From Cryobacterium tepidiphilum (GTDB taxonomy: Bacteria; Actinomycetota; Actinomycetes; Actinomycetales; Microbacteriaceae), in NCBI RefSeq assembly GCF_003716325.1, contig NZ_RDSR01000003.1, positions 124,001 to 188,000 of the forward strand: 64,000 bases of DNA, read 5' to 3'. Below, piece after piece: positions 17,945 to 52,063 of the stretch (the stretch's first letter is position 1; each line of letters opens with the position of its first letter). The notes beneath the pieces were generated by a model that was not told where the DNA came from, made no database searches, and saw nothing but the letters and a program-made list of their open reading frames with translations. The translations under genes were made by a program, and so were the position numbers.

Positions 17945-19210
17945 TCACACGCTCAGCGGCGCTTCCCTTTCACGATCGCGTTCGCGCGTCGCCCTCAGAC
18001 GGCGACCGATCAGCGCGTTGGCGAGCCCGGCGAGGAGGGTGATGGCCGCGGCGATGATCGGGAGCAGCAACGCCGCCTCCGTTCCGAAGCGCTGGGCAAC
18101 TTCGCCGGTGACGGCGGCGCCGATCGACTGCCCGACGATCACGGCGGACCCGAGGATCGTCATGACGGTCGCCGAGCGCCCCGCCGGGCTGCGATCCGCC
18201 GCGAAGCTGTACTGGGTGACGAGTGTCGGGCCGATGCCGACACCCATCACGGCCAGCGCCGCCATCATGCCACCCACGGAGTGCACGAACAGCAGCGAGA
18301 GGGCGCCAATGAGGATCACGGTGGTGAAAACCAGCCAGCGCGCCGCACGCGTGAACCGTTCCGGGAACAGGGCAACGCCGAGGGCGAAGCCGGCAGAGCC
18401 GATGCCCATCACCCCGTAGAGCAGCCCGGCCTCCTCGGGCGCGCCCCGATCGGCCATGAACGAGGTGAGCGAGGTGAGCATGGCGCCGAAGAACAGGCCA
18501 ACACCCAGGATGCCGACGACGACCACGACGAGCGCGGGCCGGAACAATTCGCGGACCGGAGCGACGGCATCCGTTCGGCCGGAACCGGGCCGGGTCGCAC
18601 GGCCGGACGGGTGCAGCGCGAACGCCGTGACGAACACGAGCGTGAAGATCGCCGCGCCCACAAGCGGCGCCCACGGGGCGATGACCGAGGCGAGCAGGCC
18701 GACGATGAACGGCCCGATGATGAACACGGTCTCGTCAGCGGCAGACTCGTACGCCATGGTCGAGTTGAGCACGCGTTGGTGCCGGTCGGCGGCGAGCCGA
18801 TGACGGATGAGAGACACCAGCCGGGAGCGCGACAGCGGCGCCACCTGCGGTGCGGTGGCTCCGATCAGGTACGCCGTCGCGAGCAGGGCGAGGTCGGGCA
18901 GGCCGCTGTAGGACACCCACGCGAACGCGGCCAGCAGGAGCCCGTTGGCCGTGGCGACCACAAGGAGCACGACGCGCTGGCCGAACCGGTCGGATGCCGC
19001 GCCGAGCAGCGGGCCGAAGCAGGCGGTGCCGAGGCCGACCGCGGCGGAGGTGAGCCCGCCGAGGGAGATCGATCCGCGCGCGGCCACCACGAGAGTGAGC
19101 ACGCCGACGACCATCATCGCGAACGGCAGCCTGGCGATGAACGCGATCAGGAAGTAGGGGAAGCCCGCCAGCCGCAGAAGGCTGGGGGTGGCTGCATTGT
19201 TTCCGGTCAT
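17945..19210 (-). CDS. MFS transporter, 12-helix
   Basis: 421 residues with about twelve hydrophobic helices and the MFS loop 2-3 motif in the form GAASDRFGQRVVLL. The gene starts FPYFLIAFIARLPFAMMVVG, typical of small-molecule exporters of actinobacteria. AGAGG precedes the ATG. It stands alone, with no regulator next to it, and the substrate is unknown. The 105 bp between it and the pirin gene hold nothing I recognise. Confidence 0.88.
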   Translation of the reverse strand: MTGNNAATPSLLRLAGFPYFLIAFIARLPFAMMVVGVLTLVVAARGSISLGGLTSAAVGLGTACFGPLLGAASDRFGQRVVLLVVATANGLLLAAFAWVSYSGLPDLALLATAYLIGATAPQVAPLSRSRLVSLIRHRLAADRHQRVLNSTMAYESAADETVFIIGPFIVGLLASVIAPWAPLVGAAIFTLVFVTAFALHPSGRATRPGSGRTDAVAPVRELFRPALVVVVVGILGVGLFFGAMLTSLTSFMADRGAPEEAGLLYGVMGIGSAGFALGVALFPERFTRAARWLVFTTVILIGALSLLFVHSVGGMMAALAVMGVGIGPTLVTQYSFAADRSPAGRSATVMTILGSAVIVGQSIGAAVTGEVAQRFGTEAALLLPIIAAAITLLAGLANALIGRRLRATRERDREREAPLSV

Positions 19211-19335
19211 GACCTCTGTGCACGTCCGCGAGCGCGGGGGTTGGGTGCCGCCGTGGTCCGCCGGCGAGGCCGGCAGCCGGTAGATACACGAATCTGATGA
19301 ATGCGGTGACGCCGTGTGGCTGCGTCACCGCCAGT

Positions 19336-20736
19336 CTACGCGAGCACGACCGTGGAGCGGTCTTTTCCAGCGCGTTTGGATTCGTACATCGCATTGTCGG
19401 CGAGCCGCACCAGTTGGTCGCCCGTCACCGGCGCATTCCCCTCCGAGGGCCGGTACACGCAGATTCCGACGCTCGCCGACAGCGGGAACGACGAGCCCAT
19501 GCCCTCCAGCGGCTGCGCGATGTCCTCGCGCGCCCGGTCGGCGATGGCCCGGGCATCGTCCTCGTCGATGTCTTCGCAGATGATGAGGAACTCGTCGCCG
19601 CCCAGCCGCCCCACGGTCTCCTCGGCACGAACGACGCGCGACAACCGGTCGCTGATCTGCCGCAGCACCTGATCGCCGTACTGGTGCCCGAGTGAATCGT
19701 TGATCGCCTTGAACCCGTCGAGGTCGACGAAGATCACGGCGATCGGCCGGCCATGTCTCACGCTCCCGCTGAGGACCTGCTCGAGTCGGGATTGGAGGGC
19801 GGAACGGTTGGGCAGGCCGGTCAGGACGTCGTGCAGCGACTGGTGCCGGACCTGCTGCTGCAGCCTGATCCGTTGCAGCACAGCGGATGCCTGGTCGCAC
19901 AGCGCAGTGAGGAGCTTGCGCACGCTGTCGTCGAGGGTGCGCGTGCGGCCGAAGTGGCACACGAGCACACCCCTGACGGCCTCGTCCTCGACCAGGGGAA
20001 CGACGCACAACGACTCGACCTTGGCGTCGAACAGGGCGTCCACCGCGGCCGGGAACCGGCGACGGATGGCGACCGGAGACGCACAGACCACGGCGTCCGC
20101 AGCACGGACCGCTTCGGCTTCCGGGCACAGGCCGGCCAGGTCGATGCGAGCGGCGACCGGGTGCTCGCCGGCCACGAGCTCAAGCTCGCCGGGATTCCGC
20201 ACCAGGAGAACGCTCGTGTTCGTCGCATCCGTTGCCGATTGGGCCGCGGCGGCCAGTCCTGCCCCGAGGTCCTCCTCGGTCATGGCGGACGCGAACACCC
20301 GGGCGGCGCCCTCGAGCACTTTCAAACGGGCCAGCGAGCGGTCTGCGCTCCTGCGGGCCTCGAGCAGGTCACGCTCGTAATCCTGTCTCGCCGTCGCGTC
20401 GAACACGGCCGTGTGGACGATGGACGACGCATCCGTTGTCACCAGCGTCGAATTGACGAACACCGCGAGCTTCGACCCGTCAGGGCGCACCAGCTCGAGG
20501 GCCATCTCCCGCACCTGGCCGTGAAGCCGCAGAAGCGGCATGAAGCGGGTTTCGAAGAAGAGCTTGCTGCCGTTGCTGAGATGTTCCATGAAGTAGGTGT
20601 CGACGATGTGTTCGTGCCGACTGCCGATGAGTTCCAGGAACGTGTCGTTGACAGAGTTCACCGCGCCATCGACCGTCATGGACAGCAGTCCGCACGGCGC
20701 CCGATGGAACAGGTCGCGCCACCGGTCTTCGTTCAT
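19336..20736 (-). CDS. PAS-GAF-GGDEF diguanylate cyclase, RsbQ-coupled
   Basis: 466 residues and no membrane helix, so soluble. A PAS domain (about 5-115; LFHRAPCGLLSMTVDGAVNS) comes first, a GAF domain (about 135-290) next, then GGDEF (about 300-466; active-site GGDEF at 379-383). It makes c-di-GMP from two GTP. The product-inhibition site RxxD five residues before GGDEF is changed to RAEE, so feedback inhibition may be weak. Its ATG overlaps the stop of the RsbQ-like hydrolase gene (ATGA). In Bacillus the order is rsbQ then rsbP, and the PAS domain of RsbP is RsbQ's partner; here the PAS is joined to a cyclase instead of a phosphatase. Confidence 0.9.
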   Translation of the reverse strand: MNEDRWRDLFHRAPCGLLSMTVDGAVNSVNDTFLELIGSRHEHIVDTYFMEHLSNGSKLFFETRFMPLLRLHGQVREMALELVRPDGSKLAVFVNSTLVTTDASSIVHTAVFDATARQDYERDLLEARRSADRSLARLKVLEGAARVFASAMTEEDLGAGLAAAAQSATDATNTSVLLVRNPGELELVAGEHPVAARIDLAGLCPEAEAVRAADAVVCASPVAIRRRFPAAVDALFDAKVESLCVVPLVEDEAVRGVLVCHFGRTRTLDDSVRKLLTALCDQASAVLQRIRLQQQVRHQSLHDVLTGLPNRSALQSRLEQVLSGSVRHGRPIAVIFVDLDGFKAINDSLGHQYGDQVLRQISDRLSRVVRAEETVGRLGGDEFLIICEDIDEDDARAIADRAREDIAQPLEGMGSSFPLSASVGICVYRPSEGNAPVTGDQLVRLADNAMYESKRAGKDRSTVVLA

Positions 20737-21548
20737 GCCAGGAAGCGACGGATGTGGCCGAGAAGCTCCTCGGGGCTCGACAGGTGGGCGTAGTGTCCGC
20801 CGGCGTCGAGCACCGCCAGTTCGCTGCCGGGGATCTGCGCGCGAATGTACTCCCCGACAGCGACCGGAGCAACGACGTCGTCGGTGGACTGCAGGATCAG
20901 GGTGGGCGTCGTCACCTCACGGAGATGGTGGCGCATGTCGGAGAGGAAGGTGACTCGCGCGAAGTGGCGTGCGACCGCGTTGTCGGTCTGCGCGAAGCTG
21001 TCGTTGAGTTCCTGCGTGAGTTCCGGACGATCGGCGTTGCCCATGAAGACGGGCGACATCGTCTCGGCCCAGCTGAGGTAGTTGGCGTCAAGGGCGTCCA
21101 GGAGCGCATCGATGTCCTCCGCCTCGAAGCCGCCGGGATAGTCGCCGTCATTGACGTACCGGGGAGAGGCTCCCACGAGAATAAGCGCCTTGAACCGATC
21201 GGGTTCTTCGATCGCCGCGAGCACGCCGATCATCGCACTGACGGAATGGCCGACATAGACGACGTCGCAAAGATCCAACTCGCGGATGATCTCGAGCAGG
21301 TCGGCCGCGTAGCCGTGCAGTGAGTCGTACTTGGATCGGTCGTACGCCGACAGGTCCGAGGCGCCGGACCCGACAAGGTCGAACAGCACGACGCGGTGGT
21401 CGTCGGCGAAGTCCGGGGCCACGAGCCGCCACATGTTCTGGCTGGAGCCGTACCCGTGGGCGAAGACCATGGCGGGCGAACGCTCATCGCCCAGCTGGGT
21501 CACGTTGTTGCGCTCGAGAACGTCGGCGACAGCGGCGGCGCCGATCAC
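20733..21548 (-). CDS. rsbQ: RsbQ-like alpha/beta hydrolase
   Basis: 271 residues. It follows Bacillus RsbQ closely: VFAHGYGSSQNMWR, FDLVGSGASDLSAYDRSKY, nucleophile elbow VGHSVSAMIGVLA, the NDGDYPGGFEAEDIDALLDA lid and GGHYAHLSSPEE with the catalytic His. The Ser-His-Asp triad is complete. RsbQ and its plant relatives D14/KAI2 are hydrolase-fold receptors that bind a small hydrophobic ligand and signal through a partner. The start is GTG 21548 with no clear ribosome site; the N-terminus matches the family there. The partner encoded next is a PAS-GAF-GGDEF protein, overlapping by 4 bp. Confidence 0.9.
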   Translation of the reverse strand: MIGAAAVADVLERNNVTQLGDERSPAMVFAHGYGSSQNMWRLVAPDFADDHRVVLFDLVGSGASDLSAYDRSKYDSLHGYAADLLEIIRELDLCDVVYVGHSVSAMIGVLAAIEEPDRFKALILVGASPRYVNDGDYPGGFEAEDIDALLDALDANYLSWAETMSPVFMGNADRPELTQELNDSFAQTDNAVARHFARVTFLSDMRHHLREVTTPTLILQSTDDVVAPVAVGEYIRAQIPGSELAVLDAGGHYAHLSSPEELLGHIRRFLA

Positions 21549-21638
21549 CGTGACACAGCCGAATTGAGCTTCATTCTGGTTATCTTTTCACACGTGCAGA
21601 GCGGCGCCCGCACCTGTGATACGGCGCGTCGTGTCGCA

Positions 21639-22529
21639 TCAGAACCCATCGATTTCGATCTTGGTCATCGCGAGCATCTTCTGGTAGGCATCCGGCCGTT
21701 GCATCAAGTCCGCCATGTTCGCCGGCACGATCTGCCAGCTGACACCGAAGCGGTCCTTGCACCAGCCGCACTGCTCCGCCTCCGGCACGCTCGACAAGGC
21801 CTCCCAGAGCCGGTCGATCTCCGCCTGATCCTCACAGGCCACGGCGAGGGACACACCCTCGGTGAAACTGAAGTCCTGTTCGGCTCCCGAGTCCATCGCC
21901 GCGAACCACTGGTTCTCGAGCATGAAGTCGGAGAACATGACCGCGCCTGCCGAAGCCGGGCCGGTCTGCTCCGGATACTCGGCCACGGTTCCGGTTCGAG
22001 AGCTCGGGAAGACCGACGTGTAGAACTCTCTGGCCTCCGCCGCGCGATTCTGGGCGGCTCCGCAGAACATCAGGCTCGGGATGACGAACGGGCGTTGCTC
22101 CCCGCCCGGGTTGGTCATCATCAGCTGCCAATTCACCCCGTACCGGTCCTGGACCCAGCCGTATCGGGCGCTGAACGGGTATTCCCCCAGCGCCATCAGC
22201 TCCTGCCCACCGGCGGACAATGCGGCCCAGAGCCGGTCGAGGCTCCCCCGGGCGTCATCCTCCACCAATGGATCGAAGTTCAGCATGAATGAGATCGCCG
22301 GATTTATCGGGAACTCCGGCCCGGCGTTGATCAAGGTGATGACCAGACCGCCCAGGTCGACGTCGACCGCGAGTGGCTTGCCTGCCATCTCCTTCTGGAA
22401 GTCGGGCAGGTTCTCGGTCGGGTAATGCACGGTCGACACCACGCGTCCGTGCGGGAACGCATCGGCATAGAACTCAGCCGCTTCAGCTGCGTCACCGTTG
22501 AACCAGAGGTTGGGCGTGATCGTCTGCAT
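21639..22529 (-). CDS. Tandem PhnB-like VOC protein
   Basis: 296 residues made of two PhnB/glyoxalase-fold (3-demethylubiquinone methyltransferase-like) domains, each with the GxAxEAxxFYxxxFP pattern (NGDAAEAAEFYADAFPHGRV; GAAQNRAAEAREFYTSVFP) and the GWVQDRYGVNWQL or GWCKDRFGVSWQI motif. Family function is unclear; members are often called glyoxalase/bleomycin-resistance relatives. ATG 22529 has GGGAG upstream; an earlier in-frame GTG lacks one. Single gene, same strand as the RsbQ pair but 90 bp away. Confidence 0.85.
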   Translation of the reverse strand: MQTITPNLWFNGDAAEAAEFYADAFPHGRVVSTVHYPTENLPDFQKEMAGKPLAVDVDLGGLVITLINAGPEFPINPAISFMLNFDPLVEDDARGSLDRLWAALSAGGQELMALGEYPFSARYGWVQDRYGVNWQLMMTNPGGEQRPFVIPSLMFCGAAQNRAAEAREFYTSVFPSSRTGTVAEYPEQTGPASAGAVMFSDFMLENQWFAAMDSGAEQDFSFTEGVSLAVACEDQAEIDRLWEALSSVPEAEQCGWCKDRFGVSWQIVPANMADLMQRPDAYQKMLAMTKIEIDGF

Positions 22530-22629
22530 GATGAACTCCCGGGTAGGCACCGTTGCCACAGCCAGTTTACGATCCGGTGGGGGTCGGCTGGCAAGGATTT
22601 CGACCTGGATTCGCGTCCGCCGCGGCCTC

Positions 22630-29840: not shown

Positions 29841-31472
29841 CTACGCGCCGACGACGCAGTCGCGACCGGCGCCCTTGGCTGCGTAGAGCGCCGCATCCGC
29901 CGCCGCGATGGCTCCATGGTCGGGGGCGGCGTGACCCACTCCGACCGAAACGGTCACCGTCAGCCCCTTGGCGACTTGGCCCCATCGGGCCCTGCGCACG
30001 GCGTCGTGGAACCGCGTCGCGACCTCATGGGCAACGTCCCCATCTCCGAAGACAAGCAAGACGAACTCGTCGCCGCCATATCGCACCGCGATGTCATCGG
30101 CGCGGCAGTGCGTGCGGAGGAGAACAGCGATACGCCGCAGCACCTCGTCGCCGACGTCGTGTGAGAATCGGTCATTCACGTGCTTGAAATCGTCGACGTC
30201 GACGAACAGGGCCGAGAACGTGTCGCCCTTGTTCTCCATCGCGTTGGTCATCATGTGCCGGTTGCCCAGGCCCGTCAGCGGGTCGAGCAGCGCGGCTTCG
30301 CCCATGCGGCTGGTCTCCGCCGTCAGGGCCCGCACCTGATTGCGGGTCTGCAACGACGTGAACCGGCCGTCGCGCTCGACCCACACCCTCTCAAGCGCTT
30401 CCCGGGAGAGTCGTTTCCACAGGTCGACGGCCGGATGCTCACCATGCTCGGCCGTTTCGAGATCGGCAAGCGCCTCCACTGCAGCCGCCGCCCACATCTC
30501 CCGACTCGCCCGGTCAGCCGTTTGCGCGGCCGCCGTCAACTGCCGGCGAGCTTCGGCGAAGTCACCGGACACCGTCGCTGCCTCGCCGAGGACAAGGCGT
30601 GCGAGGTGGGTCTCCACGAGGTCGTCGCGGAGCGGGAAGATGCCCATGACTTCGTTGACCCGAGCCGCAGCGAGCTCGGTGTAGCCGAGTCGACTGAAGG
30701 CGTAGGCCTCGAAGACGGCCGCTCGGGCGAACATCTCCTCGTTGCCCGCCAGGGTAGCGATCCTTCCCATTTGCAGCCCCTGCTCGGCGCACCGGACCAG
30801 ATGTGGTCGCGCTTCCTTGTCACGCCCCACAAGGAGGAGCGTCGTCGCCCAGAAGGCCGAGAGAAGGGCCCGCTCCTGAACCACCAGGAGGTCGATGTCC
30901 ACGTCCTCGCCAAGCCGGATCGCTGCCATCAATTCGTCAGCCTGCTCGAACAGGAAGACGGCGCGCAGGGCTACCGCAACGGCGGTGCTGGCGGAGAGGT
31001 GGGTGTAGCTGCCGCGCTGTGCGACCGAGACAAGCCAGCTTGCCTCGGCGAGGGCGTCCATGGCCCGGCTGACCTCCTTCGCCTGCGCAGACGCCTCGGC
31101 TAGGAGCGCCAGCGCTTTTGCGCGCCACATCGAATCAGGGCGCTCCCCTTCGAGCTCGTCGAGCAAGTCCATCGCAACCGTCACGGCGTCATGATGCCGA
31201 CCCAGCTCCTGTAGGGCGACGCCCTCGATGTAGCACAGGAACCGGGTTGTGATGCTGTCGCCCGCACTCCTGGTCGCAGGCTTCCAGACTCGGCACGATT
31301 GCACCGATCGCTCCGAGAATCCGGCGAGATACAGCTGGTGAGCACGATCGGCGAGAGCGTCGAACGGCCCGAATTCGGCGATGGGTACCAGCCCGGCGCC
31401 CAGCGTATCCGGGTGATCTTCGCGCGTGACGAGCTCCGTATGGGTGGTTCCACGTTGCATGGCGATCACCAT
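29841..31472 (-). CDS. Soluble GGDEF diguanylate cyclase with TPR-like sensor half
   Basis: 543 residues from ATG 31472 (539 from the next ATG; the start is uncertain because no clear ribosome site is seen). The first 370 residues are Ala/Leu-rich helix pairs of TPR-like character, without a membrane helix. The GGDEF domain follows; active site GGDEF lies at about 466-470 and the product-inhibition motif RADD is exactly five residues before it, so the enzyme should be both active and feedback-controlled. The metal-binding FVDVDDFKHVND motif is intact. It is monocistronic. Layout resembles cytosolic cyclases fused to a helical protein-binding scaffold. Confidence 0.88.
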   Translation of the reverse strand: MVIAMQRGTTHTELVTREDHPDTLGAGLVPIAEFGPFDALADRAHQLYLAGFSERSVQSCRVWKPATRSAGDSITTRFLCYIEGVALQELGRHHDAVTVAMDLLDELEGERPDSMWRAKALALLAEASAQAKEVSRAMDALAEASWLVSVAQRGSYTHLSASTAVAVALRAVFLFEQADELMAAIRLGEDVDIDLLVVQERALLSAFWATTLLLVGRDKEARPHLVRCAEQGLQMGRIATLAGNEEMFARAAVFEAYAFSRLGYTELAAARVNEVMGIFPLRDDLVETHLARLVLGEAATVSGDFAEARRQLTAAAQTADRASREMWAAAAVEALADLETAEHGEHPAVDLWKRLSREALERVWVERDGRFTSLQTRNQVRALTAETSRMGEAALLDPLTGLGNRHMMTNAMENKGDTFSALFVDVDDFKHVNDRFSHDVGDEVLRRIAVLLRTHCRADDIAVRYGGDEFVLLVFGDGDVAHEVATRFHDAVRRARWGQVAKGLTVTVSVGVGHAAPDHGAIAAADAALYAAKGAGRDCVVGA

Positions 31473-51025: not shown

Positions 51026-52063
51026 TCAGGATTCCGTGCTCGGAGCGGGCGCCACTACCGACGTGGAACCAGGAACACTCTTGGCCAGGTACATGGCGGC
51101 GTCGGCCTCATCGAGCAATTCCAATGGCTCGATGTCGGCAGAATCCGTCACGGCGATACCTATGCTCACGTGAACGGTCCTCGACCGGCCCTGGATCTCC
51201 CACGGCTCGGCCGCCGCCGCGACTACCCGAGCCGCCAACTGTTCGGCATCGTCGACGCTGCCGAGGTTCTCACAGAGGGTCACGAATTCATCCCCACCGA
51301 AACGCGCCACCGTATCGGTGGGACGCAAGACACCCACCAACCTCCTCCCTAGCTCGATGAGGACCTCGTCACCGCCACCGTGGCCGAAGGTGTCGTTGAT
51401 GGTCTTGAAGTCGTCGATGTCGAGGTACATCACGCAGACCATTCCACCGTTGCGCTCCAGTCGCGCCACCGCGCCGGCGAGGCGATCGCCGTAGAGCACG
51501 CGATTGGGCAGCCCGGTCAATGCGTCCATGCGCGCCGACCGGCGCAATGCAAGCACAGACCCCGCGAGTTTCCCCTGATGACGAAGGATGTCCAGGACCT
51601 CAGGGGAGAATTCTCTGGCGCCGCGGTCGAACATTGCCACGCTGCCCAGCACCACGCCGTTATCGATAAGCGGAACGCCAGCGTAGGAGCCGATGGCGCC
51701 GGTGAGTACCATCGGGTTCTGACTGTAGATGGGATGCGCAGCGGCATCGGGGACCGTGAGAGCCTCACCCGAGTCAACCACCTCAGCGCAAAAGGACAGC
51801 GTGTCCGGAACTGAGGTGCATTCGGCACCGATACCGGTCTCAGCGGCGTAGGTCTGCTGGTCGGGGCCGACGATGTTCACGACCACGATCGGCGAGGCGC
51901 AAGCCAGTCGCAGGGTAGCAACCACCGCATCCAAGTCGAGGTCGGCCATGTGGCCGTGGAGATCTGCGTCGGCAACAGCCTTGAGCCGCCGCGCATCGCG
52001 AACCCCAGTGATCACATCGTCTTCGTCCGAGTCGTTAAGGGGCGAGGTCACTGACAAGGTCAA
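51026..52063 (-). CDS. GAF-GGDEF diguanylate cyclase
   Basis: 345 residues, soluble. GAF domain at about 40-170 (IVGPDQQTYAAETGIG; GSYAGVPLIDNGVVLGSVAM), then GGDEF with active site at 256-260. The product-inhibition motif RPTD is five residues before GGDEF, so feedback control should be intact; the metal-site YLDIDDFKTIND is complete. The start is TTG 52063 with AGAGGA at normal spacing; there is no better ATG. Monocistronic. It is the third GGDEF protein of the window; no EAL or HD-GYP protein is present. Confidence 0.88.
   Translation of the reverse strand: MTLSVTSPLNDSDEDDVITGVRDARRLKAVADADLHGHMADLDLDAVVATLRLACASPIVVVNIVGPDQQTYAAETGIGAECTSVPDTLSFCAEVVDSGEALTVPDAAAHPIYSQNPMVLTGAIGSYAGVPLIDNGVVLGSVAMFDRGAREFSPEVLDILRHQGKLAGSVLALRRSARMDALTGLPNRVLYGDRLAGAVARLERNGGMVCVMYLDIDDFKTINDTFGHGGGDEVLIELGRRLVGVLRPTDTVARFGGDEFVTLCENLGSVDDAEQLAARVVAAAAEPWEIQGRSRTVHVSIGIAVTDSADIEPLELLDEADAAMYLAKSVPGSTSVVAPAPSTES

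Follow-up and report, generated by a model that had tools for sequence, protein, structure and literature searches.

Nadezhdin, Brody and Price described in 2011 a bipartite sensing module composed of RsbQ and the PAS domain of RsbP, with 45 adjacent RsbQ/RsbP-PAS pairs whose outputs are a phosphatase (PPM), a histidine kinase or a diguanylate cyclase, the last in both Gram-positive and Gram-negative lineages (PMC3183031). The main text of that paper defines nine distinctive residues of the PAS class and reports, for 36 of the 45 cases, that a coiled-coil of 21 residues or more may connect PAS with output. It offers two models: the hydrolase hands a product to the PAS domain, or the hydrolase is itself the receptor. 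Energy status as the signal is stated there to be without experimental support, and the cue is termed mysterious. A 2025 article models RsbP together with RsbQ in AlphaFold2 and proposes, in a text that credits the PAS/hydrolase module to the 2011 paper, that the phosphatase, kinase and cyclase outputs are modularly exchangeable (PMC12143880). Our literature search, judged by titles and the beginnings of abstracts and with subscription journals mostly outside its coverage, found no study that examines an RsbQ-cyclase pair by experiment; nor did it meet a publication that names a ligand of any RsbQ.

The window analysed here is a 64,000-nucleotide stretch of the Cryobacterium tepidiphilum genome. 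On its minus strand, the gene for an RsbQ-type hydrolase overlaps the gene for a PAS-GAF-GGDEF protein. We consider it very likely (a probability of roughly 85%) that this pair is the published RsbQ-PAS sensing module placed on a diguanylate cyclase. The closest solved structure is RsbQ, the PAS, GAF and GGDEF domains can each be identified, and the adjacency is conserved, all of which fits a sensory module of this kind.

An RsbQ-type hydrolase gene overlaps a predicted cyclase gene

The upstream gene (20733-21548, minus strand) is a complete open reading frame with a GTG start codon. It encodes a 271-aa alpha/beta hydrolase, as judged from Pfam, alignment and similarity to solved structures. 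Among solved structures, B. subtilis RsbQ ranks first (1wom, E 7e-77, covering residues 7-267), followed by 3qvm and then by D14/KAI2 proteins. The catalytic residues S102, D224 and H252 are unchanged across an alignment of 18 sequences that includes B. subtilis RsbQ. The protein thus combines full-length similarity to RsbQ with an intact Ser-Asp-His triad, the two marks of the RsbQ family, as the first-pass annotation had maintained. Its likeness to the plant receptors D14 and KAI2 is one of sequence family (for example 8vcz, a D14L protein, E 8.6e-62), and our analysis gives no sign of a common ligand. D14 and KAI2 signal through F-box and repressor proteins and not through a PAS domain, in contrast to what is proposed for the pair in the window.

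The stop codon of the hydrolase gene (TGA) and the start codon of the cyclase gene (ATG) form a shared ATGA at 20733-20736. Hence, the gene order proposed earlier, with the hydrolase upstream and a 4-bp overlap, stands. A scan of 19150-21760 found no promoter or terminator (shuffles expect 0.1 and 1.1). Another gene on the same strand (21639-22559, minus strand) lies 90 bp upstream of the hydrolase gene; two stretches of its product match 3-dmu-9_3-mt, and there is a weak match to Glyoxalase.

The partner gene (19336-20736, minus strand) starts with ATG and encodes 466 aa. It had been claimed that the partner bears GAF and GGDEF domains in place of a PP2C phosphatase, and this is what we find: Pfam identifies PAS_9 at residues 15-115 (20392-20694, E 4e-5), GAF_2 at residues 153-288 (19873-20280, E 1.2e-7) and GGDEF at residues 301-460 (19357-19836, E 1e-44). 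The PAS_9 score of 24.3 bits is below the curated cut-off of 27, and the NCBIfam PAS model “sensory_box” is above its own cut-off (40.2 versus 22.9 bits). With the PAS domain alone as the query, phmmer found no solved relative in the PDB at E up to 1. This null result and the low PAS_9 score are counted against our reading. An AlphaFold2 model of the partner, built with 54 relatives (mean pLDDT 96, pTM 0.77), places the PAS domain first, followed by a connecting helix (residues 115-149, 20290-20394), the GAF domain, a second connecting helix (residues 270-301, 19834-19929) and the GGDEF domain.

The active-site motif GGDEF is unbroken at residues 379-383, which fits the prediction, made from sequence, of an active diguanylate cyclase. 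An intact GG(D/E)EF is missing from 10 of the 71 GGDEF partners that we collected. Among the 61 that have it, the I-site is usually R..D (56/61), and the window's partner, with R370..E373, is the sole case of R..E. This difference may weaken product inhibition.

How does the pair compare with the systems described so far? It shares with the RsbQ-PAS-cyclase module of PMC3183031 an RsbQ homologue immediately upstream, an N-terminal PAS domain, a GGDEF output and a helix after the PAS domain. The DIT motif is absent after PAS in the published module and likewise here, where FDATARQ (D-A-T) stands at that place. From PAS to output, the model has a helix of 35 residues, the GAF domain and a helix of 32 residues, lengths that are read from the structure model and not from a coiled-coil score. 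In contrast to the published module, a GAF domain here separates PAS from GGDEF, and the word GAF is absent from the main text of the 2011 paper; furthermore, two class positions of the PAS domain carry R64 and A91. With RsbQ-RsbP of the B. subtilis sigma-B energy branch, the pair shares the hydrolase family, the gene order and the PAS domain, but its output is GGDEF and not a PPM/SpoIIE-type phosphatase, and the genome has no SpoIIE-type match at E 0.001. MtG of Moorella thermoacetica, with RsbT, is similar in that a general-stress input module is joined via GAF to a GGDEF cyclase; however, the input of MtG is an RsbU N-terminal domain with RsbT, whereas that of the window's pair is PAS with RsbQ (PMC12143880). 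The first-pass annotation had proposed a swap of output from energy-stress sigma control to second-messenger control. A module with a GGDEF output fits, but the swap is not new, because cyclase outputs were reported in 2011 (PMC3183031). The principle is already published, and the window's pair differs from a known module in small ways, namely the inserted GAF domain and the changed F-alpha residue.

The pairing is conserved

In the family, class and genus searches, a hydrolase was counted as present at E 1e-30 or better. By this measure it is carried by 52 of the 299 sampled Microbacteriaceae genomes and by 60 of the 296 sampled genomes of the class; hence, the module is absent from most genomes. 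(A first scan of genome contigs with a single protein as query confirmed no relative.) There are 118 hydrolase places in the window's family and class. Leaving out the window itself, two places near contig ends (G284 and G414) and one whose hydrolase is off the contig (L120), 114 loci could be judged; in 109, the next gene downstream, on the same strand, encodes a PAS partner. The five exceptions are L084, L118, L119, L165 (at a contig end) and L166; the proteins at L118 and L119 have PAS domains deeper inside, and that at L118 also has histidine kinase and receiver domains. Among the best 80 loci of a wide scan, 76 have a PAS partner and four do not (L249, L260, L264 and L271); five of the 80 repeat earlier loci and were omitted from later analyses. 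Twenty extra loci from plasmids and Proteobacteria include 13 with a partner, six without (L281, L294 and L301-L304) and one, L300, with a weak match that lacks an RsbP-type start. The hydrolases of L300-L304 are the most distant in the Alphaproteobacteria search (35-40% identical to the query). The partnerless loci in all three sets, together with L300, are counted against our reading. Partners were recognised by similarity to the N-termini of other partners, so these counts are partly circular; PAS_9 confirms 50/55, 51/55 and 68/71 partners in the family, class and wide-scan sets, respectively.

Of 57 genomes of the genus, 17 have the hydrolase (E 1e-30); precisely those 17, and no others, have the partner (E 1e-60), and by coordinates the two adjoin in all 17. 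Because linked genes are in any case lost jointly, their co-occurrence by itself says little about function. Nonetheless, a pair that recurs in most judged loci and in every one of the genus genomes with either protein is not a product of chance. The idea that the two genes are neighbours without any functional link is extremely improbable, since their adjacency is also kept in named organisms from several phyla. The adjacency seen in the window is therefore conserved in its relatives, and a lack of such conservation, one of the two outcomes named as refuting the first-pass annotation, did not occur.

Cyclase outputs prevail among the family's modules

In Pfam searches of 55 Microbacteriaceae partners, the window's included, 54 have GGDEF, 45 have GAF_2 and eight have EAL; the sole partner without GGDEF (L127) is broken off at a contig end. 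A search for adjacent RsbQ/PAS-GGDEF pairs, which had been proposed as a check, is thus answered in the affirmative by nearly all of the family's partners. By the same count, a cyclase output is common across the family's modules and is not special to the window, and the swap of output cannot be regarded as a feature of this genome. The 55 partners found by the class search in other families have SpoIIE (PP2C-type) in 51 cases and GGDEF in two. The 71 partners from the best loci of the wide scan, with repeats removed, have SpoIIE in 33 cases, HATPase_c in 23 and GGDEF in 12. Profiles built here divide 194 partners into 84 phosphatases, 71 cyclases, 33 kinases and six unclassified, and at least five changes between GGDEF and other outputs are needed on a FastTree tree of these partners.

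A second type of RsbQ pair is present in Microbacteriaceae (L080-L083 and L085-L088), with eight partners of 586-624 aa. These are probably the eight EAL-bearing partners, with GGDEF and EAL after PAS. Some PAS-PP2C partners have an additional RsbW-like HATPase_c_2 domain (2/55 in the class set and 14/71 in the best loci of the wide scan); judging by length, the two in the class set are probably L098 and L167.

Hydrolase-PAS interface

RsbP numbering was mapped to the partner by a constant offset of 5, and not by alignment with the B. subtilis RsbP sequence; the offset is backed by matches at RsbP C10, L13, L48, F55, P62 and E72. With this mapping, seven of the nine class residues fit (C15, L18, L53, K58, F60, F61 and E77), where K58 and F61 are judged from the consensus classes given in the text and the figure 3 legend of PMC3183031. 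The other two deviate: R64 is at the position of RsbP Y59, and A91 at that of RsbP P86. The PAS helix at residues 55-72 contains F60, R64 and P67, the equivalents of residues in RsbP F-alpha. In B. subtilis RsbP, Y59A is reported as null, with protein at about half its level, and disrupted RsbQ binding in a yeast two-hybrid assay; P86A is weak (PMC3183031). Both deviations are counted against our reading.

Small molecules are frequent ligands of PAS and GAF domains. This favours a link that is metabolic, in which the cyclase protein responds to a signal of its own, and the hydrolase does no more than produce or consume a diffusible ligand of PAS or GAF and does not contact PAS. A link of this sort would equally show the gene overlap and the co-occurrence, and the presence of R64 where Y59A disrupts RsbQ binding is also in its favour. 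We nonetheless regard it as unlikely, because the window's PAS domain keeps the equivalents of RsbP L48, F55, P62 and E72, and because RsbQ distances track PAS more than GAF. Across 58 pairs, hydrolase distances correlate with those of PAS at r 0.78, of GAF at 0.60 and of GGDEF at 0.44, values that carry no significance test. As a pattern in sequences, these correlations suit a hydrolase-PAS unit.

A further explanation, which is compatible with the RsbQ-PAS module on a cyclase, is that the hydrolase is bound as before but the GAF domain mainly controls the cyclase, with PAS now a scaffold. The deviations at R64 and A91 are in line with this idea, as is the frequency of GAF_2 among Microbacteriaceae partners. 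However, the catalytic triad of the hydrolase is intact and the genus keeps or misses both genes jointly, and we judge such re-specialisation distinctly unlikely.

Is the arginine at the Y59 position linked to the output? In a first set of 181 partners, 30 of them unclassified, R occupies this position in 50/58 GGDEF partners, and H occupies it in 71/71 PP2C and 19/22 kinase partners. In the enlarged set, R is present in 59/71 GGDEF, 0/84 PP2C and 1/34 kinase partners, and H in 84/84 phosphatase partners. GGDEF partners of other lineages have no R: the residue is Y in Paenibacillus (L280), H at a locus from the Gammaproteobacteria search (L295), V in Rhizobium (L278) and S at two loci of another Actinomycetes family (L112 and L113). 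Seven Microbacteriaceae partners have Q, Q, H, G, G, A and T. R thus marks lineage and not output, and we rejected it as an output-linked residue.

The co-evolution of the PAS domain with the hydrolase had also been suggested as a check. We computed APC-corrected mutual information for 176 pairs, excluding 19 of 195 partners (six unclassified and 13 that were added later from plasmids and Proteobacteria). The top covarying pair among 68,265 column pairs is RsbQ S36 with PAS R64: D36 accompanies H in 103/115 cases, and S36 accompanies R in 49/52. Among the top 100 covarying pairs, 28 span both proteins, a share below the 43% that chance would give. Since the signal between RsbQ 36 and PAS 64 may largely represent one lineage split, it was tested on a tree computed after removal of both columns. 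With 194 rows (L300 dropped) and seven independent pairs, an average of 1.1 changed the same way and 1.2 the other way; with Y pooled with H, the averages were 1.1 and 0.0, too few to test. As the tree-aware test gives no support, we rejected this covariation as evidence of contact and set it aside. Thus, the check is answered in part: hydrolase distances track PAS best, but the leading covariation is not upheld once the tree is considered. It is rather unlikely that the interface was rebuilt in Microbacteriaceae, with an F-alpha change from H to R matched by a change from D to S at RsbQ position 36 as the output became a GAF-buffered cyclase and the receptor-cyclase pair became orthogonal to, and free of cross-talk with, the phosphatase type.

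Proposed function

What would an RsbQ-PAS module do on a diguanylate cyclase? Following what is set out for RsbQ and RsbP in PMC3183031 and PMC12143880, we propose that the hydrolase would bind or turn over a small molecule and would directly touch the F-alpha helix region of PAS. A change in the PAS dimer could then pass through the helix at 115-149, the GAF domain and the helix at 270-301 to two GGDEF domains, and the relayed change would set c-di-GMP synthesis by the GGDEF pair. The GAF domain may provide a second input or may merely be a dimeric spacer. We infer the hydrolase-PAS contact, the existence of a ligand, signalling by the dimer, the direction of control and the effect on c-di-GMP; the “small hydrophobic” nature given to the ligand by the first-pass annotation is presumed in the same way.

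Should the module function in this way, a hydrolase akin to plant hormone receptors would set c-di-GMP in many Microbacteriaceae. No RsbQ ligand is named in the literature we met, and a cyclase read-out would therefore be handy for finding one.

Across the genome, there are nine GGDEF matches and six EAL matches. Two more GGDEF domains lie within the window, at about 29859-30293 and 51077-51535 on the minus strand, as located by the genome search. RsbQ relatives are also found on 74 plasmid records, 24 of which are typed as conjugative; in Rhizobium rosettiformans, a diguanylate cyclase gene follows one of these relatives.
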